A DNA stretch of 36,998 nt from Lentisphaerales bacterium (lineage in GTDB: Bacteria; Verrucomicrobiota; Kiritimatiellia; JAUXFM01), in NCBI GenBank assembly GCA_030622955.1, contig JAUXFM010000013.1, forward strand, positions 1-36,998. Reading direction: 5' to 3'. The notes below the pieces were generated by a model. It was not told the DNA's origin, did not search any database, and was given only the letters and a program-made list of their open reading frames with translations. Position 1 is the stretch's first letter. Each line of letters begins with the position of its first letter. This document shows, piece after piece, positions 15,902 through 31,874 of this stretch. The position numbers and the translations under genes are program-made.

Positions 15902-16894
15902 ATGATCAACACCAAAGGAATGTCGGGCAGAAGCCTGCTTACCATAAACGATCTTTCGGACGGTGAACTCTTCTCACTCATCAAGCTGGCGGCAGAACTC
16001 AAAACGCACAGAAAAGCAGGCAAATCCGAGCAACGCCTGGCCGGCAGGACCGTTGCACTCATATTCGAAAAACTCTCGACCAGGACACGTTGTGCATTCG
16101 CGGTTGCTGCAGCAGAGGAGGGCGCCAACACGGAATACTTACGAGGTGGGGAAATACACCTTGGCAAGAAGGAATCTGTCAAGGATACAGCCCGTGTTCT
16201 AGGCAGGATGTTTGACGCGATCGCTTTCCGTGGTTACGAGCACAGCAGGGCTGCCGATTTTAAGCGATTTTCAGGCGTCCCTGTCTGGAATGCACTGACG
16301 GACGATCACCATCCCACCCAGGCACTTGCCGACCTCATGACCATCAGGGAAAACTTCGGGCAATTGCGGGGGATTAATGTCACATATGTCGGCGATGGTC
16401 GGAACAATGTTGCTAACTCACTTATGGCCGCATGCGCAAAAACAGGGATCAACTTCGTGAATTGCACCCCGGAAGAACTGCTGCCAGATGAAGAGCTTCT
16501 GAAAAATGCCAAAAGAGCGGCCGAACGAAACGGTGGATCCATACGCGTGACGAGCTCTGTGGCTGACGGTGTGCGTGGCACCAACGTAATCTACACAGAT
16601 GTATGGGCTTCAATGGGCGAAGAATCCGTGATGGAACAGCGCATCGAAATGCTGCGACCCTATTGTGTAAACGAGGACATGATCGAACAGGCTGGCACAA
16701 TGAAATCAAACGAACTGATATTCCTGCATTGTCTGCCCGCTTTCCACGACAACAATACCGAGGCAACCGCTCAAACAGGCGCACTTGAAGTTACCGATGA
16801 AGTTTTTGAGGCTTCTTACTCGAAAGTATTTGATCAGGCGGAAAACCGGGTCCACTCCATCAAGGCATTGATGGTGGCAACATTGGGAAGCTAA
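15902..16894 (+). CDS. argF: Ornithine carbamoyltransferase
   Basis: Transfers the carbamoyl group from carbamoyl phosphate to ornithine, giving citrulline in arginine synthesis. The 330 residues include the carbamoyl-phosphate motif STRTR (59-63), HPTQALADL (137 onward), the ornithine-specific loop DVWASMGEE (SMG at 237-239) and HCLPAFHD (276-283). The SMG loop separates it clearly from aspartate and other transcarbamoylases. AAAGG lies nine bases before the ATG at 15902. A second in-frame ATG 18 bases downstream is possible but has worse spacing. A catabolic role (arginine deiminase pathway) cannot be excluded, but no arcA or arcC is nearby. pyrB follows after 12 bases, so the two transcarbamoylases are co-transcribed. 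Confidence 0.95.
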   Translation: MINTKGMSGRSLLTINDLSDGELFSLIKLAAELKTHRKAGKSEQRLAGRTVALIFEKLSTRTRCAFAVAAAEEGANTEYLRGGEIHLGKKESVKDTARVLGRMFDAIAFRGYEHSRAADFKRFSGVPVWNALTDDHHPTQALADLMTIRENFGQLRGINVTYVGDGRNNVANSLMAACAKTGINFVNCTPEELLPDEELLKNAKRAAERNGGSIRVTSSVADGVRGTNVIYTDVWASMGEESVMEQRIEMLRPYCVNEDMIEQAGTMKSNELIFLHCLPAFHDNNTEATAQTGALEVTDEVFEASYSKVFDQAENRVHSIKALMVATLGS

Positions 16895-16906
16895 CGGAGG
16901 TAGAAC

Positions 16907-18007
16907 GTGAGTCAATTACACGACAGGGGAATAAGCGGGTTAGAGTGGCCCGCATTTGTTGATCTGTCTATCCAGGAAAAAGCAGCTTTGTTGATGGCCG
17001 AAGGCCGTGAATTCCACGTGCTGCTGGCACAGCAGTTCAACCGGAACAGGCTTGAGGTGCTCGGCAACCTGGCAACCGCTATCAGGCGCATAGCCAAATC
17101 AGAAGCCGGGATGAAGTTCCTCGGCAGCATGCTGGCGCACAGACGGGCAATGCTCTACTTCACTCAGCCCAGCACAAGAACCTTCCTGTCATTTTGCGCT
17201 GCCTGCCAGATCCTCGGTATACAGATTGGCGAAGTCCGTGATACCGCTACCTCAAGTGAATGCAAGGGCGAAACACAGGAAGATTCAGTCCGGACCTTCA
17301 GTTCCTATTTCGATGTAATAATCATGCGCTCCAAGATCGGAGGTCTGGCAGAGCGTATGGCGTGGGTGCTTTCACAATCCGAACGACCTGTCCCCATTAT
17401 CAATGCGGGGTCCGGCAAGGACCAACATCCCACACAGGCGCTGCTTGACATCTATACACTGCAGAGGAGCTTCGAAAAACGCGACGGCATCGATTCCAAG
17501 AAAATCATGTTTGTTGGCGACCTCGCACGTGGCCGTACTGTAAGATCGCTCTCATACCTTCTGACTAACTACAGCAACGTGAAGCTCTATTTCGTCGCAC
17601 CGGAACCGCTGCAGATCGGAGAAGATGTTCTCGCCATGTTGAAGGAGGCAGGAACGGAATGCGAGGTGAGATACGATTTCGATGCACTAATTCCAGAGGT
17701 CGACGCGATCTACATGACTCGAATCCAAGACGAATGGGATTCTGAGCAGGGCGCGAGCACAAAGATAGATACATCAAAGTACAAGTTCGCCGTACGCCAC
17801 CTTGACATCATGAAGCCTGATGCTGTGATAATGCATCCATTGCCGCGAAGGGATGAGATATCCACAGACGTTGATCATGATCCTCGTGCGGTCTACTGGC
17901 GACAGATGCGAAACGGCATGTGGGTGCGTGCAGCCCTTATAAGCTCAATATTTCGGCGCGATTCAGAGATCCTCAGATATCATGAAGAGCATTTCTCCCT
18001 ATCTTAG
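16907..18007 (+). CDS. pyrB: Aspartate carbamoyltransferase, catalytic chain (N-terminally extended type)
   Basis: Makes carbamoyl aspartate in pyrimidine synthesis. It has STRTFLSF (89-96), the mobile-loop KGET (120-123), HPTQALLD (174-181), the aspartate-enzyme RxQ motif in YMTRIQDEW (269-277) and HPLPRRDEI (310-318). These place it with ATCases rather than OTCases. At 366 residues it exceeds the usual 305-315; most of the excess is 40-50 residues before the STRT motif. It starts with GTG, with GGAGG six bases upstream. No regulatory pyrI chain follows. The tandem with argF puts two consumers of carbamoyl phosphate in one transcript. Confidence 0.93.
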   Translation: MSQLHDRGISGLEWPAFVDLSIQEKAALLMAEGREFHVLLAQQFNRNRLEVLGNLATAIRRIAKSEAGMKFLGSMLAHRRAMLYFTQPSTRTFLSFCAACQILGIQIGEVRDTATSSECKGETQEDSVRTFSSYFDVIIMRSKIGGLAERMAWVLSQSERPVPIINAGSGKDQHPTQALLDIYTLQRSFEKRDGIDSKKIMFVGDLARGRTVRSLSYLLTNYSNVKLYFVAPEPLQIGEDVLAMLKEAGTECEVRYDFDALIPEVDAIYMTRIQDEWDSEQGASTKIDTSKYKFAVRHLDIMKPDAVIMHPLPRRDEISTDVDHDPRAVYWRQMRNGMWVRAALISSIFRRDSEILRYHEEHFSLS

Positions 18008-18097
18008 CCGGAACGATTCATCAAAACCGGCAGCTGGTTATTGTTTGAATAGCTAATGGATATTGACGTTAACGCAGATATGGCGCAGGGGAATGGG

Positions 18098-19636
18098 ATG
18101 CACCAAATGGTGATTAAGAATAGGAAAGCACAATTCGGGACGCCTTCCGCCAGCAACGCGGCAGCTGACGGGCTGGCGCAATCTGCCACGTTTCGGCTTA
18201 GAGCCATATTGCTGCTGGTCCTTGCATTTTCCTTATCATCCAGCGCATTCGCTCTGCCCGCATTTGATCTTGGCTTTTTCGCCTCACGCGACAAGGACAT
18301 CCATGGAAAAGAGCGTTTCAGGGCGATTGGGCCACTGCTGGAGTCGCGCTCAGGTGATGATGGCTCCTCTTTCTTCGCAGCCAGGCCGCTATATTCCTTT
18401 ACCTACGAGCCCACGAACAAGGACAGGTCACTCCAGGATTTCCTTTGGCCACTGGCATCGCGAAAGGTACGGGATGGCGAGAGCTACTGGCACTTCCTTC
18501 CGGCTTTTGGCCAGGATTTCGACGATGCGGCCGCTCGAGCACGGCACCGCTGCCACATATATCCTCTGCTCTTCACCGGCAGAGACAAGGACGACGAACC
18601 CTATTTCGCATTGTTTCCTTTGGGGGGAACGATCCATGAATTCCTTGGCAGGGATCGCGTTGCCTTCGCACTCTTTCCCCTCTATTGCCGCAGCACAGTG
18701 AATGATGTAGTCACGCACGATGTGCTCTGGCCCATCTTCTCAAGATCGACCGGCGATGGCGTTTACCGGTTCAAGGCATTCCCTTTCTACGGGGTATCCA
18801 AACGAGCCAACCGCTATGAACGAAGATTTGTACTCTGGCCGTTCTGGACGTCCACCCGTTACAACTTCCCTGACAACTCTGGCTACTCGTTCATTCTTTT
18901 CCCCTTGATCGGCCGTGCAAGACTGCGCGATCAGGATTCATGGACTCTTCTTCCGCCTTTCTTTAAATGGGGGCGAACCCCTACAATGATGGCCATCAAT
19001 TGCCCCTGGCCATTTCTTCAGTTCAGTTCCGGGGACGTCAACAAAGCCTATATCTGGCCACTCTGGGGCAGCCGCAAGCGGCATGATGGAAAAAGTTGGT
19101 TCTTCCTCTGGCCCATTGTTCACGGTGAGCGACGGATGATAACTGAGACAGAGGAACTGCGCCGTTTCCTGCTGGTGCCCATAATCTCTTACGAATCACA
19201 GACCGAGAAGGAGGAGGACAACAGCGTGACCGTCAAGAAAAGATATTTCAGGATCTGGCCACTTATGTCCTATAAAAGAAGCGGCGGGTCCACGCGCTTT
19301 CGTGCGCTCGCCCTCTGGCCGGGCAGGCAGGACTCACCCATGAGCAGGAACTGGCGGCCACTCTGGACGATCTATTCCAGGGATAGGAAAGGAGCACTCG
19401 TGGAAGATGAGTTCCTGTGGGGACTCTACCGTCACAGACGCAACCATGGGAAGATGCGGAAATGGTCTCTCTTCCCTCTCTTCTCATGGGAAAGCCGTGT
19501 GGCAGATCCTGAACTGGTAGAATGGAATGTTCTCAAGGGATTGGTCGGCTATCGAAACAAGGACAAGGACAAATCGTTCAGATTTCTGTATATCAGATTC
19601 GGGGTGAATGATGCTCCTGCCGAAAAAGAAGACTAA
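18098..19636 (+). CDS. Secreted protein made of W-P-(L/F) beta repeats, function unknown
   Basis: About 512 residues from this start. A hydrophobic export segment (FRLRAILLLVLAFSL) ends in SSSAFA, a likely signal-peptidase site. The mature part is built from at least fifteen copies of a short motif, (L/I/F)-(W/F)-P-(L/F/I)-(F/W/Y/x), about every 18-30 residues. Examples are DFLWPLAS, HDVLWPIFS, RFVLWPFWT, SFILFPLIG, AYIWPLWGS, WFFLWPIVH, FRIWPLMS and WSLFPLFSWES. Between them are charged turns rich in Arg, Lys and Asp. The alternation of aromatic strands and charged turns fits a beta-repeat or beta-barrel fold; this is inference. The ATG at 18098 has AGGGG six bases upstream; an upstream ATG (18056) has no ribosome site. 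mlaEFD lies just downstream on the same strand. No named family was recognised. Confidence 0.75.
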   Translation: MHQMVIKNRKAQFGTPSASNAAADGLAQSATFRLRAILLLVLAFSLSSSAFALPAFDLGFFASRDKDIHGKERFRAIGPLLESRSGDDGSSFFAARPLYSFTYEPTNKDRSLQDFLWPLASRKVRDGESYWHFLPAFGQDFDDAAARARHRCHIYPLLFTGRDKDDEPYFALFPLGGTIHEFLGRDRVAFALFPLYCRSTVNDVVTHDVLWPIFSRSTGDGVYRFKAFPFYGVSKRANRYERRFVLWPFWTSTRYNFPDNSGYSFILFPLIGRARLRDQDSWTLLPPFFKWGRTPTMMAINCPWPFLQFSSGDVNKAYIWPLWGSRKRHDGKSWFFLWPIVHGERRMITETEELRRFLLVPIISYESQTEKEEDNSVTVKKRYFRIWPLMSYKRSGGSTRFRALALWPGRQDSPMSRNWRPLWTIYSRDRKGALVEDEFLWGLYRHRRNHGKMRKWSLFPLFSWESRVADPELVEWNVLKGLVGYRNKDKDKSFRFLYIRFGVNDAPAEKED

Positions 19637-19641
19637 TCTTC

Positions 19642-19670
19642 ATAACAATCTGATTAAGCTCTGCTATACT
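19642..19670 (+). promoter_or_regulatory. Candidate sigma70-type promoter of mlaEFD
   Basis: ATAACA (19642-19647), 17-base spacer, TATACT (19665-19670), just after the stop of the repeat-protein gene. The predicted transcript start is near 19677. This would let mlaEFD be transcribed separately from the gene upstream. Confidence 0.45.
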
Positions 19671-19729: not shown

Positions 19730-20518
19730 TTGCCGCCGGCCCGTGGCGCTTCCGGCAGGTTCGGCAGACAGGCTCTTCTCGGTTGCCGTGCCATGGGAAG
19801 AGGTTTTCTACTTCTCTGGCATTCCCTATTAAGTATCCGGTATGTCTTCAGGAAACGGGAGCGTCGCGAGGTAATCGTACAAATGTTCACCTGCGGCATC
19901 AAGAGCCTGGGCGTCATCACCGTGGTGGCCTTGTTCAGCGGAATGATCATGGCACTTCAGACGGGTATCGAAATGATGCGTTTCCATCTCGAAGAAAACA
20001 TAGGCACAGCAGTCATGGTCTCGATGCTCCGCGAGATGGGCCCATTCATGACAGGACTCATACTGGCGGCCAGCGTTGGTTCGGCCATAGCCGCGCAAGT
20101 GGGCACAATGGTTGTCTCCGAAGAGATTTCCGCGCTGGAAACAATGTCTATTGACCCCGTCCGCTTCCTTGTGATGCCGCGCCTGATCGCAATGGCAATC
20201 ATGACGCCAATCCTTTCGTTCTACACATGTGTTACCGGAGTGATAGGCGGTGGAATCGTCGGAGTGACCCAGCTGGGAGTGCCATGGTGGACCTATTTTG
20301 ACAACTCGACGCTGTTTGCTACTACAAAGGATCTTTATGTCGGTCTCTTCAAGGCTTTCCTTTTCGGGATCATCATTGTCATTGTGGCCTGTCACGAAGG
20401 ATTCTCGGCTTCACAGGGAGCTGTCGGGGTGGGCATTGCCACGCGAAGATCAGTGATCGCGTCGTTCCTAGCCATCCTGATCGTAGGATATTTTGTTACG
20501 AAGATCTGCTATATATGA
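19730..20518 (+). CDS. mlaE: MlaE-family lipid ABC transporter permease
   Basis: Membrane subunit of an MCE/Mla phospholipid transporter, with about five membrane segments. Family signatures: VVALFSGMIMALQTG, LREMGPFMTGLILAASVGSAIAAQ (the conserved RE-x-GP and GSA-x-AA region) and EEISALETMSIDP. The length (262) is normal. The start is doubtful. The frame runs open from about 19658 with no ATG before 19793, and that ATG would remove the conserved amphipathic stretch SGRFGRQALLGCRAMGRG. TTG at 19730 is the nearest accepted start codon but has no ribosome site. An AGAGGGAG sits near 19691-19698, seven bases before an in-frame ATA at 19706. mlaF follows after 29 bases. Confidence 0.88.
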   Translation: MPPARGASGRFGRQALLGCRAMGRGFLLLWHSLLSIRYVFRKRERREVIVQMFTCGIKSLGVITVVALFSGMIMALQTGIEMMRFHLEENIGTAVMVSMLREMGPFMTGLILAASVGSAIAAQVGTMVVSEEISALETMSIDPVRFLVMPRLIAMAIMTPILSFYTCVTGVIGGGIVGVTQLGVPWWTYFDNSTLFATTKDLYVGLFKAFLFGIIIVIVACHEGFSASQGAVGVGIATRRSVIASFLAILIVGYFVTKICYI

Positions 20519-20547
20519 GAAACACCTGAATTATCGGTTAAGCGCGA

Positions 20548-21309
20548 ATGATAACGTTTGAAAATGTAACAAAGATCCTTGGGCAGAAAACTGTTCTTGA
20601 TGGCATTGATGTCGAGATAAAGGACGGCGAGACGTTTGTCATTGTGGGGGCATCGGGTGCTGGCAAGAGCGTGATGCTCAAGAACATAGTGAGGCTCCTG
20701 ACCCCGGATGATGGACGGGTCATGATCGATGGCGATTGCATCAGCGAAGCATCAGCTAATGAGCTGGAAACAATACGCGAGAAATTCGGTGTTCTCTTCC
20801 AAAGTGGGGCACTGCTGGCCTGGATGAGTATTGGTGAAAACGTGGCGCTACCGCTCAGGGAGAAAACCGACATGGATGAGACAGAAATAGTTGACAGGGC
20901 GCGTGAAAAACTCGCACTTGTTGGACTCGAAGATTCCTTTCACAAACTGCCATCCGAGATATCCGGAGGGATGGTGAAGCGTGCTGCGCTTGCGAGGGCG
21001 ATCGTAAGAAACCCACGTATAGTGCTTTACGATGAACCGACTTCGGGGCTGGATCCTGTCACAGCAAGAACGATCGACTCACTGATTGAACAGATGCGCA
21101 GGGAATTGGCTGTCACCAGCGTTGTAGTGACGCATGACCTGCACAGCGCACTGGCGATAGGCACCCGGATTGCAATGCTCCACAGTGGCAGGATAATTGA
21201 ACTCTCCACACCTGATGCGTTCATCCGCTCGGCTGAACCGATAGTAAAGGGCTTTCTTGAATCACAATACATTACTAAGCGAGGTTCCTGGGAAGGGGCA
21301 ACAAAATGA
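20548..21309 (+). CDS. mlaF: MlaF-family lipid ABC transporter ATPase
   Basis: Cytoplasmic ATPase that drives the MlaE permease. The 253 residues contain Walker A GASGAGKS (34-41), a Q-loop FQSGALLAWMSIGENV (the LFQ-x-GAL-x-x-x-x-V/I-x-EN pattern specific to Mla/Mkl ATPases), the signature SEISGGMVKRAALARAI, Walker B IVLYDEPTSGLDP and the switch histidine VVTHDLHSA. All catalytic residues are present. The C-terminal segment after IVKGFL is short. The stop overlaps the mlaD start as ATGA, so the two are translated together. Confidence 0.94.
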   Translation: MITFENVTKILGQKTVLDGIDVEIKDGETFVIVGASGAGKSVMLKNIVRLLTPDDGRVMIDGDCISEASANELETIREKFGVLFQSGALLAWMSIGENVALPLREKTDMDETEIVDRAREKLALVGLEDSFHKLPSEISGGMVKRAALARAIVRNPRIVLYDEPTSGLDPVTARTIDSLIEQMRRELAVTSVVVTHDLHSALAIGTRIAMLHSGRIIELSTPDAFIRSAEPIVKGFLESQYITKRGSWEGATK

Positions 21310-22097
21310 AGAAAGACTGGAGACTTAAAGAACTAACCGTCGAAGTTGTAGTGGGTGTTTTCGTGATGCTTGTCCTGCTCGGGCTTGGGATCTTCACGAT
21401 CGTATTGTCTGGCAACAACATTCTACGCCCACATTACTCTTACGACGTGTATTTCCAAGACATTATGGGGTTGCGTGAAAAGGATGACGTCGTTGTGCGC
21501 GGGATGAAGATCGGGCAGATCAAATCGCTCCGCCTTGAAAAGAACAACAGTGTCCATGTGACCATGAATCTCGACAGGAGACCTGCATTGAAGGATGACT
21601 GCAGATTCTTCATAACATCCAAATCACCGCTCGGCGGGCGCCAGATGAACATCGATGAGGGTGCCAACGCCATCCCCTGGCCGGAAGGCAAGCGGTTGAT
21701 TGGTGACAAACCTGTAGATATTCTCGCCGAGGCATCTGAGATCATAAAGGATATCCGTGAAGCCTTTATCGATGACGGGATCCTTGACGACATGAAATCA
21801 GGCGCTTCCGACATGTGTGACATTGCTGAGCGACTGAACTCGGGGAAAGGCATGTTTGGCAAGCTGCTGTCTGAGGACGAACAACTCTATGATGATATGG
21901 TCGCTTCGGTCAATTCCCTGAAGAACCTCACCGCGAAGATAGAAAGCGGGGAGGGGAGCATTGGGCGACTAGTGCAGGATGAAGACCTCTACAACGAAAT
22001 CAAGGGACTGATAGTTGAGGCACGCGCTTCTGTTGACGACCTGCGAGAAACATCCCCGATAGTCACATTCACAAGCATCTTCTTTGGAGCATTCTGA
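21306..22097 (+). CDS. mlaD: MlaD-family MCE-domain protein
   Basis: Substrate-binding subunit of the Mla transporter: one N-terminal transmembrane helix (about 13-35, VEVVVGVFVMLVLLGLGIF) and a periplasmic MCE domain (about 42-120) with YDVYFQDIMGLREKDDVVVRG and GGRQMNIDEG. The C-terminal part carries two copies of a G-x-G-x-x-G-(K/R)-L-x-x-D-E-x-L-Y-(D/N) motif: SGKGMFGKLLSEDEQLYDD near residue 180 and SGEGSIGRLVQDEDLYNE near 216. Such repeats are common in the helical tails of MCE proteins. The length (263) suits a single-MCE hexamer. mlaB and mlaC do not follow; the next gene is the convergent guaB. Confidence 0.92.
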   Translation: MKKDWRLKELTVEVVVGVFVMLVLLGLGIFTIVLSGNNILRPHYSYDVYFQDIMGLREKDDVVVRGMKIGQIKSLRLEKNNSVHVTMNLDRRPALKDDCRFFITSKSPLGGRQMNIDEGANAIPWPEGKRLIGDKPVDILAEASEIIKDIREAFIDDGILDDMKSGASDMCDIAERLNSGKGMFGKLLSEDEQLYDDMVASVNSLKNLTAKIESGEGSIGRLVQDEDLYNEIKGLIVEARASVDDLRETSPIVTFTSIFFGAF

Positions 22098-27833: not shown

Positions 27834-28349
27834 ATGCAGTGTGATGGATGCGATAAAAGAGAAGCAACTGTTTACCTGACACAGGTTATCAGCGGTCAGG
27901 TACAGAAGATCCAGCTCTGTCACGAATGTGCCGAACAGAGCGGGCTGGGGCTTGCATCAGGCCCATCACTGACAGAAGCGTTATACGGGACATCCAGCGA
28001 GGAAGAGCTGAGAAAGGACGCCATGGAGAAGAGTTGCCCCAAATGTCACCTCAGGCGCAGTGACTTCAGAAAGACTTCACGCCTGGGTTGTCCAGCCTGC
28101 TACACGATGTTCGCAACAGAGCTTGAAGGACTATTCAAAAGCATCCACAAATCGACAAAACATGAGGGCAAGATTCCTGCCAGTCGACAAATGACGTCAC
28201 AGGAAACCATGATGCAGCAGCGACTCCAACATGCAATATCCAAGCAGGACTTCGAAGAGGCCGCAAAGCTGCGTGACCTCCTCGCAGCCGCACAATCCAC
28301 TCCAGGTAAGCGGCGCAAGAATGCCCGGAGCGTTCAACATGAAGGTTGA
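27834..28349 (+). CDS. mcsA: McsA, zinc-binding activator of the arginine kinase McsB
   Basis: A 171-residue protein with four C-x-x-C pairs (Cys3/6, Cys29/32, Cys68/71 and Cys86/89) forming two zinc sites, and a C-terminal UVR motif (about 127-160, with HAISKQDFEEAAKLRDLLAA). In Bacillus and Staphylococcus McsA binds and activates McsB. The 3' end overlaps mcsB by 11 bases, so the two are translationally coupled. A lysine/arginine tail (GKRRKNAR) follows the UVR motif. ctsR, which commonly precedes mcsA in Firmicutes, is replaced here by ilvE. Confidence 0.94.
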   Translation: MQCDGCDKREATVYLTQVISGQVQKIQLCHECAEQSGLGLASGPSLTEALYGTSSEEELRKDAMEKSCPKCHLRRSDFRKTSRLGCPACYTMFATELEGLFKSIHKSTKHEGKIPASRQMTSQETMMQQRLQHAISKQDFEEAAKLRDLLAAAQSTPGKRRKNARSVQHEG

Positions 28350-29397
28350 AGAACTGCTGGCTAGGCAGGGCGCATGGCTTTCCCCAAAGAAGTTCGACGG
28401 CACAATCATCAGCAGCCGATTGAGGTTGGCTCGCAACATCAGGGGTGTAGCGTTCCCCGGCTGGGCCGGGGCCAGAGAATCTGCCTCGCTTTGCGAAGAA
28501 ATCAGGAATACCATCTCATCAGTGCAAGCACTGCGCGATGCGGAATTCCTCCATACCGGTGATCTGGATGGCCTCGACAAGCTCGTGCTCCACGAGCGAC
28601 AGCTCCTGAGTCCTGAATTGATGGAAAGAGACAACGGAAGTGGTGTCTTCATTACCCCGGATCAGAGGATTGTGCTAATGATCAATGAAGAGGACCATAT
28701 CCGGCTGCAGGTCATTTCACCGGGCATGGACCTGATGAAGGGCTGGGAGATGATCTCTTCAATTGATGATGAACTCGAAGAAGTCCTGGAATATGCCTTC
28801 TCTCCTGAGTTGGGCTACCTGACGGCCTGCCCTACAAATGTAGGCACTGGCTTGCGGGCAAGTGTCATGATGCATCTGCCTGGCATGCACCTGATGAAGG
28901 AAATAGATCCCATGATCAGGGGTTTGAACAAGATGGGTTATGCGGTGAGAGGAATATCCGGCGAGGGGTCGGAAGCTTTCGGGAATATGTTCCAGATATC
29001 CAACCAGATGACGCTCGGATACTCAGAGGAATCGATCATACAGAGTCTAACGATCATTGTTGACGAGGTCAAAAACCACGAAAACAACGCCCGGGACCAA
29101 CTAATGGACGATAAACAGGAGTACATCCGCGATTATGTGGGAAGATCCATGGGCGTACTACTGCATGCGCATCTACTTTCATCAAAAGAGGCACTTGATC
29201 TGCTTTCGGCTTTTAGACTCGGGCTTGAGATTGGTATGCTCAGCGGAATTCAAATCCCGCAGATCGATGAACTTATGCTCTTGACGCAAGCCGGACATCT
29301 TCAGAAAATAGAAGGGAAAGTACTTTCTCCCGACCATAGAGATAGAGCAAGAGCACGCGTTATCAGGGAACGACTGAAAGATGCTCTGATGTATTAG
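28339..29397 (+). CDS. mcsB: Protein-arginine kinase McsB
   Basis: Phosphorylates arginine side chains, tagging proteins for ClpC-ClpP. The 352-residue guanido-kinase has the ATP-binding arginine motif SSRLRLARN (25-33), NEEDHIRLQ, the catalytic-loop cysteine in CPTNVGTGLRAS (Cys164) and RGISGEGS. The C-terminal RDRARA (334-339) matches the RDxxRA phosphoarginine-binding motif that separates McsB from creatine and arginine kinases. The open frame extends upstream to 28231 within mcsA, but ATG 28339 has GGAG eight bases upstream and gives the normal McsB N-terminus. An in-frame ATG at 28321 is a second choice. clpC starts 11 bases after its stop. Confidence 0.96.
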   Translation: MKVEELLARQGAWLSPKKFDGTIISSRLRLARNIRGVAFPGWAGARESASLCEEIRNTISSVQALRDAEFLHTGDLDGLDKLVLHERQLLSPELMERDNGSGVFITPDQRIVLMINEEDHIRLQVISPGMDLMKGWEMISSIDDELEEVLEYAFSPELGYLTACPTNVGTGLRASVMMHLPGMHLMKEIDPMIRGLNKMGYAVRGISGEGSEAFGNMFQISNQMTLGYSEESIIQSLTIIVDEVKNHENNARDQLMDDKQEYIRDYVGRSMGVLLHAHLLSSKEALDLLSAFRLGLEIGMLSGIQIPQIDELMLLTQAGHLQKIEGKVLSPDHRDRARARVIRERLKDALMY

Positions 29398-29408
29398 AAG
29401 GAAAGAAT

Positions 29409-31874
29409 ATGACTAACTTTAGCAATTTCACCCCTCGCGCGCAGCAAGTGGTCCAACTTGCAAGGCAAGAGGCAGAGCATTTTAATCATCCTTACGTGGG
29501 GACAGAACACCTGCTGCTAGGGCTCGTCGCCCTGGGTGAGGGCGTGGCCGTCAGCGTGATGGAGAAGATGGGTATCTCGCTCGACAGCGTGCGGCTGGAG
29601 GTCGAGAAGATGGTGGGGCAGGGCCCCGAAACAAAGACAGTTGGAGAGCCGCCATTCACACCACGGGCCAAGAAGGTCCTTCATCTGGCAGCAGCGGAAG
29701 CACGTTCGCTGAACCATTCTTATGTCGGCACAGAACATATACTCCTGGGCCTGCTCCGCGAAGGGGAAGGCGTCGCGGCACATGTTCTCGAAAACCTCAG
29801 CGTGGATCTTGATACTGTTCGCGTCGAGATTATGAAGGAACTTGATCCCAATTTTGACCCGCAATATGTCGAACAGGAACCACCCAAAGCAGCAAAACCG
29901 CAGGCCAAGTCAAAGACTCCCGCACTGGACGCATTCGGACGTGATCTGACGGAGATGGCCGCCAAGTCCCAGCTTGACCCGGTAATCGGTCGCTCGGAAG
30001 AGCTTGAAAGAGCCATCCAGATCCTCTGCCGACGGACAAAGAACAACCCCGTGCTCCTCGGAGAAGCGGGGGTCGGCAAAACTGCGATTGTAGAGGGACT
30101 CGCGCAGGCTATATCCGATGGCATCATACCAGCAATGGTCCGCGACAGAAGGGTCATAGCTCTTGACCTCGCCCTCATGATCGCCGGGACCAAGTATCGT
30201 GGCCAGTTTGAAGAACGCATAAAGGCCGTAATGGACGAGATCAAGCGGGCCGGGAACATCATTCTCTTTATTGACGAACTACACACGATCGTCGGTGCAG
30301 GATCTGCTGAAGGTGCAATGGACGCCTCCAATATCATCAAGCCCATGCTTGCGCGCGGAGAGCTGCAGTGCGTCGGAGCCACCACGATGGACGAATACAG
30401 GAAGCATATTGAAAAGGATTCCGCCCTGGAGCGAAGATTCCAGTCAATCCTCGTTGATGAGCCGAGCGTCGATGAAACGGTGCAAATCCTCAGGGGTGTC
30501 GGCGAAAAATACGAGCAGCATCACCATGTCATCTACAGTGACGAGGCGCTTGAATCTGCTGCGCGCCTTGCCGATCGCTACATCACCGGCCGCTTCCTGC
30601 CGGATAAGGCAATTGATGTTATCGATGAAGCAGGCTCGCACGCGAGGATCGCCGCAACAACCTACCCGCCATCACTCAAGAAGCGTGAGTCCAGCATAAA
30701 GGAAATCTGCCGCAGGAAAGAAGAGGCCATCAGCAATCAGCGCTTTGAGGATGCCGCCGAACTCAGGGACAAGGAAAAGAAAGAACGAAACGCCCTTGAC
30801 GAGAGCATTACAAAATGGCGAGAGAAGAGCGAAGAGAAGAAGATCAAGATTTCTGCTGAGGATATGATGGCCATTGTCTCAAAATGGACCGGAGTTCCTC
30901 TCAAAAAGATGGATCGCCGCGAACTTTCGCGACTGTTGGATATGGAAAATCAACTCGCCAAGAATGTCATAGGCCAGACTGAGGCCATAGGCAGCATCTG
31001 TCGCGCATTGCGTAGGTCGCGAGCAGACCTCAAGGATCCTGCGAGACCAATAGGCTCTTTCATATTTCTGGGGCCAACAGGTGTTGGCAAGACTCTACTG
31101 GCCAAGGCACTGACGGAATTCATGTTCGATAATGCTGACTCACTCATCCAAATCGATATGTCTGAGTTCATGGAGAAATTCACGGTCTCCAGGCTTGTCG
31201 GATCGCCGCCTGGCTACATCGGCCATGAAGAAGGGGGTCAGCTTACCGAACGTGTACGCAGACGCCCTTATTCAGTGGTCCTGTTTGACGAGGCCGAAAA
31301 AGCGCATCCGGATCTTATGCACATCCTCCTGCAGCTCCTAGAGGAAGGAAAAGTGACTGACAGCCTTGGCCGACACATCGATTTTCGCAATACAGTGGTC
31401 ATATTGACCTCGAATCTGGGCGGCCAACACGTCAAAAAGGGCAGCGGGCTGGGCTTTTCCGATGCTTCCGGAACCACCAATCATGAGCATCTGAAGGGCA
31501 AAATGCTCGAAGAGGCCAAGAAAGTTTTTAAGCCTGAATTCATGAATCGGTTTGACGACATCATCGTTTTCAGGCAGCTTACCAAGGCTGATGTTGAGAA
31601 GATCCTGGATCTCGAGCTTGCAAAGATAGGCGGACGCCTTGCCAGACAGGGCATCAAGCTGGAGCTTAATAAGTCGGCTAGGACGTTTCTGATCAACAAG
31701 GGCTATGACGAAACCCTCGGTGCCCGGCCATTGCGGCGGGCAGTCGAGAAATACGTGGAAGATCAGCTTGCCGAAGAGATTCTCAGGGGCAGCCTGCAGA
31801 AGGACAAGGTTGTCAAGGTTGATGTCGGCAAAACTGGGCTTACATTTAAACAGCCGGCCACGGCGAATAAGTAG
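29409..31874 (+). CDS. clpC: ATP-dependent Clp protease ATP-binding subunit ClpC
   Basis: AAA+ unfoldase of 821 residues that feeds substrates to ClpP. Order: double Clp_N repeat (about 1-145), first AAA domain with Walker A GEAGVGKT (218-225), a middle domain carrying a UVR-like segment (RKEEAISNQRFEDAAELRDKE, about 435-458) that identifies ClpC rather than ClpA or ClpB, second AAA domain with GPTGVGKT (555-562), and the D2-small domain. Each Clp_N repeat keeps the GTEH motif. Glu33 and Glu109 align with the Bacillus ClpC glutamates (32 and 106) that bind phosphoarginine. AAGGA precedes the ATG. ClpP is not in the window. Confidence 0.97.
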   Translation: MTNFSNFTPRAQQVVQLARQEAEHFNHPYVGTEHLLLGLVALGEGVAVSVMEKMGISLDSVRLEVEKMVGQGPETKTVGEPPFTPRAKKVLHLAAAEARSLNHSYVGTEHILLGLLREGEGVAAHVLENLSVDLDTVRVEIMKELDPNFDPQYVEQEPPKAAKPQAKSKTPALDAFGRDLTEMAAKSQLDPVIGRSEELERAIQILCRRTKNNPVLLGEAGVGKTAIVEGLAQAISDGIIPAMVRDRRVIALDLALMIAGTKYRGQFEERIKAVMDEIKRAGNIILFIDELHTIVGAGSAEGAMDASNIIKPMLARGELQCVGATTMDEYRKHIEKDSALERRFQSILVDEPSVDETVQILRGVGEKYEQHHHVIYSDEALESAARLADRYITGRFLPDKAIDVIDEAGSHARIAATTYPPSLKKRESSIKEICRRKEEAISNQRFEDAAELRDKEKKERNALDESITKWREKSEEKKIKISAEDMMAIVSKWTGVPLKKMDRRELSRLLDMENQLAKNVIGQTEAIGSICRALRRSRADLKDPARPIGSFIFLGPTGVGKTLLAKALTEFMFDNADSLIQIDMSEFMEKFTVSRLVGSPPGYIGHEEGGQLTERVRRRPYSVVLFDEAEKAHPDLMHILLQLLEEGKVTDSLGRHIDFRNTVVILTSNLGGQHVKKGSGLGFSDASGTTNHEHLKGKMLEEAKKVFKPEFMNRFDDIIVFRQLTKADVEKILDLELAKIGGRLARQGIKLELNKSARTFLINKGYDETLGARPLRRAVEKYVEDQLAEEILRGSLQKDKVVKVDVGKTGLTFKQPATANK

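Follow-up and report, generated by a model that had tools for sequence, protein, structure and literature searches.

We identified a gene for an exported W/F-P hairpin-repeat protein (WP), comprising about 20 hairpins, upstream of mlaEFD in a 36,998-nucleotide stretch of a Lentisphaerales bacterium genome (contig JAUXFM010000013.1; hereafter, the window), and this protein is probably the periplasmic or outer-membrane partner of MlaEFD, a dedicated Verrucomicrobiota-type Mla component replacing MlaC and MlaA. The reading is built on an export signal, operon conservation, distribution among genomes, a correlation with the MlaD C-terminal tail, and the prediction of an all-beta ribbon (Table 1). 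Judging from the sequence comparisons, WP very likely belongs to the MlaEFD machine and likely acts on its outer side, and its replacement of both MlaC and MlaA appears probable. The partnership is strongly supported because adjacency is conserved, WP is complementary to MlaA and MlaC, and the MlaD tail type matches. WP-mlaEFD is a known kind of system (an MCE/Mla transporter) with a new component. The first-pass annotation had proposed an envelope partner for an MlaEFD lacking MlaC and MlaA; adjacency, complementary distribution, and the MlaD tail uphold the partnership, and the transmembrane barrel form suggested for it was not sustained.

Table 1: Positions in the window of WP, the mlaEFD genes, and their segments
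Feature	Position	Strand	Description and basis
WP (W/F-P hairpin-repeat protein)	18098..19636	+	512 aa; ORF; motif statistics; no named family
Sec signal segment of WP, TFRLRAILLLVLAFSLSSSAFAL	18188..18256	+	sequence; N-termini of relatives
Mature region of WP	18275..19606	+	AlphaFold model m834f9a6407af; turn map; composition around turns
mlaE, ABC permease of the Mla/MCE system	19730..20518	+	PF02405, E = 2.5e-67
mlaF, ATPase	20548..21309	+	PF00005, E = 5.7e-30; MlaF model PRK11831 was the second-best NCBIfam match
mlaD, MCE protein with TM helix, MCE domain (aa 43-119), helical rod, and hydrophobic C-terminal tail RETSPIVTFTSIFFGAF	21306..22097	+	PF02470; alignment; model
MlaD C-terminal tail codons, segment occurring with WP	22041..22094	+	tail counts over MlaD loci

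The mla operon and its genome

The Mla/MCE core is encoded in a single operon (19730-22097), and Pfam matches downstream of WP confirmed the identities first assigned to mlaE, mlaF, and mlaD. As originally described, WP lies ~94 bp upstream of the mlaE start on the same strand. The promoter candidate annotated between the 2 genes does exist as promoter-like hexamers (19642-19670), but consensus matches were not above shuffles, with 1 site found versus 1.6 expected by chance. Neither mlaC nor mlaA was identified anywhere in the genome assembly of the window (G000, 91% complete), which extends to the entire assembly an absence previously claimed for the neighborhood; an Escherichia coli-type 6-component Mla system, including MlaC and MlaA, is thus not encoded in this 91% complete assembly. 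LptD and Omp85 are encoded in the same genome, and the bacterium, therefore, has a true outer membrane.

WP is exported and built of regular W/F-P turns

The WP frame is open from the ATG at 18056 to the stop codon ending at 19636, with possible starts at 18056, 18080, and 18098, and the true start among these candidates is uncertain. A hydrophobic Sec segment (RLRAILLLVLAFSLSSSAFA) precedes the W/F-P-filled mature chain, in agreement with the signal peptide first reported. Judged by eye, an N-terminal signal segment fitting Sec export was recognized across the family, and the N-termini of relatives carry an ordinary signal in some cases and a lipobox in others (LFSAGC and LLAAGC among them). 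The window WP has no lipobox with its Cys, unlike L001, L002, L010-L016, and some other relatives.

The strict motif [LIFVM][WF]P[LFIV] was found 10 times in WP and a relaxed form 13 times, the latter mostly spaced by 17-22 residues, compared with means of 0.27 (maximum 3) and 1.4 (maximum 7), respectively, in 2,000 shuffles of the mature chain. The "more than fifteen" motifs counted at first exceed both of these numbers and are reached only when every aromatic/hydrophobic-Pro turn is included (FPF, LPPF, PWPF, and others), giving 17 turns. Across 16 aligned relatives, the turn Pro was invariant at 15 of the 17 turns and present in 15/16 and 10/16 sequences at the remaining 2. Along the chain, W/F-P-L turns alternate with short charged turns, as the earlier description of charged turns between motifs had it. 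The predicted ribbon is, by composition, amphipathic from edge to edge, because hydrophobic and aromatic residues are enriched at positions -5 to +2 of the turn Pro, and the charges lie farther out, with most positions beyond being 25-57% charged. No DNA-level tandem repeats were found in the gene.

Single and profile searches returned no family match for WP in Pfam, NCBIfam, PHROGs, PADLOC, or PDB sequences, consistent with the initial impression that no nameable family fits. WP has no PF04333 match and is thus not a member of the MlaA family. A match to Expansin_C (E = 0.032) fell below the cut-off and was treated as chance. The plasmid collection contained no match, and literature searches retrieved nothing on a protein like WP.

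Larger W/F-P hairpin proteins (L143, L144, L145, L146, and L147), secreted or lipobox-bearing and up to ~1,400 aa long, are encoded away from mla; L147 (G000:C190:14865-15893, cut by the contig end) belongs to the window's own genome. Weak profile matches to proteins of 800-1,400 aa were assigned by sequence to these larger repeat proteins and excluded from WP counts. The W/F-P hairpin fold seems to be part of a wider Verrucomicrobiota repertoire.

Predicted fold of WP

AlphaFold2, using 16 sequences, predicted ~45 short antiparallel strands for WP, nearly all of 5-6 residues, placing the W/F-P turns along one edge and the charged turns along the other. The model had a mean pLDDT of 83.5 (240 residues at 90 or more) and a pTM of 0.66, and mean pLDDT over the 5 models ranged from 83.5 down to 53.9. 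The predicted global shape is uncertain because of this pTM and the wide spread among the 5 models, and the modeled chain could be extended, coiled, or ring-closed.

A Foldseek search against the PDB gave no global match, with weak local matches only, to single-layer sheets or propeller-type proteins; these included the CPAP TCP10 domain (4bxp; prob 1.00, TMt 0.44) and OspA mutants. The CPAP TCP10 domain and the central sheet of Borrelia OspA are free-standing antiparallel sheets, as predicted for WP, but they have no sequence kinship to WP, serve unrelated functions, and match only part of it. We know of no W/F-P turns in either sheet. A propeller was rejected for WP, as the long Foldseek alignments had an rmsd near 30 Angstrom and a TM of about 0.1. 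A transmembrane beta-barrel was likewise rejected since membrane-spanning strands in outer-membrane beta-barrels have about 8 or more residues and nearly all predicted WP strands have 5-6. Structure prediction gave an all-beta ribbon and did not support the classical outer-membrane barrel suggested earlier, the only Foldseek matches being weak ones to isolated single-layer sheets and propeller-type proteins.

Distribution of WP and its adjacency to mlaEFD

Among 84,980 species genomes scanned, 16 contained a WP relative, with 31-44% identity over the best segments, in records titled Kiritimatiellia, Verrucomicrobia(ota), Lentisphaerae, PVC group, or uncultured bacterium. In 10 of the 16 (L001-L009 and L011; the L004 sequence ends inside mlaE), mlaE directly follows WP on the same strand, in most cases accompanied by mlaF and mlaD, and the genes farther upstream differ in most of them. 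No mlaE was found next to WP within the available stretch of the other 6 (L010, L012-L016).

We searched 289 Verrucomicrobiota genomes with a profile of the 16 sequences (E < 1e-20), and this search detected WP in 128 genomes, comprising 92 of the 97 genomes of the window's class and 36 from other classes. The surroundings of WP were examined for 125 carriers, 124 of which had enough downstream sequence. In 104 of these 124, spanning 38 families, mlaE lies directly downstream on the same strand, which clearly contradicts the refuting possibility that homologues never occur near mla genes; WP lies away from mlaEFD in the other 20, and a sample of such genomes inspected by eye had no recurring alternative neighbor. 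The WP-mlaEFD order was kept in the distant families f39, f55, f52, and f57, at 23-27% identity to the window WP, and distant flanks vary while WP-mlaE adjacency stays. WP and MlaE also co-occurred, with MlaE encoded in 128/128 carriers versus 140/161 non-carriers (Fisher 3e-6, treating as independent genomes that are related).

WP trades places with MlaA and MlaC

MlaA was identified in 12 of 128 WP carriers versus 101 of 161 non-carriers, again counting related genomes as independent. Since phylum-wide tests carry this assumption, the pattern within family f39 is the better argument. Of its 24 genomes, 18 had WP without MlaA, 5 had MlaA and MlaC without WP, 1 had WP and MlaA, and none lacked both. 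MlaC was absent from 18 of the 19 WP genomes, as was MlaA, with 1 carrier (G155) giving a weak MlaC match. In the window's class, 2 WP-less genomes (G098 and G260) encode MlaA, MlaC, and a single MlaE. In carriers G101, G178, and G210, MlaA/MlaC are encoded in a separate region, a second mlaEF(D)-C(-A) cluster with a short MlaD-type protein.

MlaEFD also occurs without either WP or MlaA, as in most of family f37; a partner is, therefore, not obligatory for every MlaEFD, and other solutions must exist. In 4 carriers of family f41, WP is found together with a MlaA domain protein. We also noted a 708-aa protein combining an N-terminal MlaA domain with an alpha/beta-hydrolase domain (L161 2247-4373, G043). 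Many ORFs of 600-880 aa with MlaA matches were present in families f35, f41, and f47, and WP-less genomes often contain frames of comparable length.

A hydrophobic MlaD tail accompanies WP

MlaD of MlaC/A-linked operons is short, about 147-175 residues where cleanly read. The WP type is long, as a rule 300-370 residues (the window protein has 263); it contains helical repeats, and its hydrophobic C-terminus reads ...RETSPITTFSSIFFGAF in the window's class and ...GPITAVGVVANALF in f39. WP-less Verrucomicrobiota also have a long MlaD, but its C-terminal end is charged or polar. WP carriers had the hydrophobic tail at 96 of their 97 MlaD loci (93 by the strict rule, 3 with 1 basic residue), non-carriers at 0 of 24 loci, and MlaC/A operons of carriers at 0 of 3, counts that are slightly inflated if a few loci represent one genome in 2 collections. 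The sole tail-less locus among carriers is the second MCE operon of G065. The tail is kept in carriers whose WP lies unlinked, and it is missing from the WP-less G025, though this genome shares its genus with carrier G089. The tail may, however, be the signature of a MlaEFD lineage passed down alongside WP and not a contact surface.

A low-confidence model of the window MlaD comprises a TM helix, the MCE domain, helices, and a disordered tail; with helices and a low-confidence tail only, it is not of the Veillonella barrel type. The helical repeats of WP-type MlaD (GEGTLGKLLSDD.LY.D; e.g., L007 11048-12097) vary in number, so that MlaD length differs among relatives while the tail is kept.

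Proposed role of WP and alternatives

In the mechanism we propose, WP would be exported across the inner membrane and lipid-anchored in part of the family. It would fold into a long antiparallel beta-ribbon of small width, with the W/F-P-L tips lined up along one side as a continuous aromatic, hydrophobic edge. The MlaEFD engine would drive phospholipid along the long MlaD hexamer, and its 6 hydrophobic C-terminal tails would dock on WP at the outer-membrane side, where the aromatic edge would dip into that membrane's inner leaflet or line a lipid groove; WP and the long MlaD would jointly do the work of MlaC and MlaA. The physical WP-MlaD contact, the outer-membrane location, lipid binding, and the direction of transport are what we infer here. 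The chance that WP binds the MlaD tails is about even, and WP may reside within the outer membrane, at its surface, or unattached in the periplasm. The fullest version, in which WP is a new family and fold (a W/F-P hairpin ribbon) forming the outer half of an MCE transporter, capturing the tails of the MlaD hexamer and passing phospholipid to or from the outer-membrane inner leaflet instead of MlaC/MlaA, falls slightly short of an even chance. Any single model of how WP handles lipid is doubtful.

One such model makes WP a periplasm-spanning slide or bridge, LptA- or TamB-like in principle, with lipid fed by MlaD and moving on the aromatic edge. At 4.8 Angstrom per strand, ~45 predicted strands would reach roughly 200 Angstrom if extended, about the width of the periplasm, and the continuous hydrophobic edge suits a slide, as does the fact that WP stands in for MlaC as well as MlaA in distribution. 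However, a long MlaD equipped with a helical rod might be enough on its own to bridge the gap, strands of 5-6 residues give a narrow sheet whose shape may be extended or coiled, and no bridge-type protein (LptA, TamB) was among the 50 Foldseek matches listed, so we regard a bridge as unlikely. Lipid passage through a true outer-membrane barrel, single or oligomeric, is very unlikely. WP is an exported, aromatic-rich, all-beta antiparallel meander, and a barrel domain is used by the MlaD of Veillonella (PMC10665443), but WP strands are too short to cross a membrane and frequently bear charged residues away from the turns, several members are lipoproteins, and porins and LptD match WP only at E > 0.03 and TM < 0.16 (Foldseek).

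The remaining alternatives deny WP a part in lipid handling. A regulator, chaperone, or envelope-stress sensor sharing the operon would agree with the 20 carriers in which WP is unlinked and with the larger secreted paralogues found away from mla, including the one in the window's genome; regulation alone would hardly explain why WP and MlaA/MlaC exclude each other or why the MlaD tail matches, and we consider this role quite unlikely. That WP is an ordinary neighbor with no functional link, its adjacency and distribution reflecting shared ancestry, is hardly credible: although every carrier found belongs to 1 phylum and the tests ignore relatedness, WP-mlaE adjacency persists across 38 families at ~25% identity with other neighbors changed, and unlinked WP/MlaD pairs retain the matching MlaD type.

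Comparison with known systems and significance

WP occupies the same distribution slot as MlaA (PF04333) and MlaC (PF05494) of E. coli, envelope partners encoded with or alongside MlaEFD, but neither matches WP in sequence, and their operons carry a short MlaD, unlike the WP type. MlaA and MlaC also differ from WP in fold, MlaA being helical. TGD4 is the plastid outer-envelope partner of the TGD1-2-3 MCE transporter and is, likened by description only, a separate beta-rich partner on the outer-membrane side of an MCE transporter, as proposed for WP.

Veillonella parvula has a long MlaD with a C-terminal beta-barrel and no MlaA or MlaC, and a direct bridge was proposed (PMC10665443). The WP-type system shares the long MlaD and the lack of MlaA/MlaC; however, the outer-membrane part is fused to MlaD in V. 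parvula, whereas the WP type has a short hydrophobic MlaD tail and a separate all-beta protein. A survey of 1,083 genomes concluded that in most diderms MlaEFD may work alone by means of a long MlaD, and found the MlaD C-terminal barrel completely absent in the PVC group (PMC10665443). WP would be an extra component missed by that survey, plausibly for want of a family model. WP, which trades places with MlaA/MlaC, is a concrete candidate for the component that lets MlaEFD reach the outer membrane in their absence; the MlaD tail is a defined contact to test, and cultured Verrucomicrobiota exist. If the proposal is true, WP would add an unnamed repeat fold to envelope biology.

Other genes in the window

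A carbamoyltransferase-type gene pair (15902-18007) lies upstream of WP in the window and adjoins WP-mlaEFD in L001, L002, L018, L065, and L066 as well. The window also harbors a mcsA-mcsB-clp cluster (27834-31874), encoding a protein-arginine kinase, its activator, and a ClpC/ClpB-like ATPase, an arrangement best known from Firmicutes.
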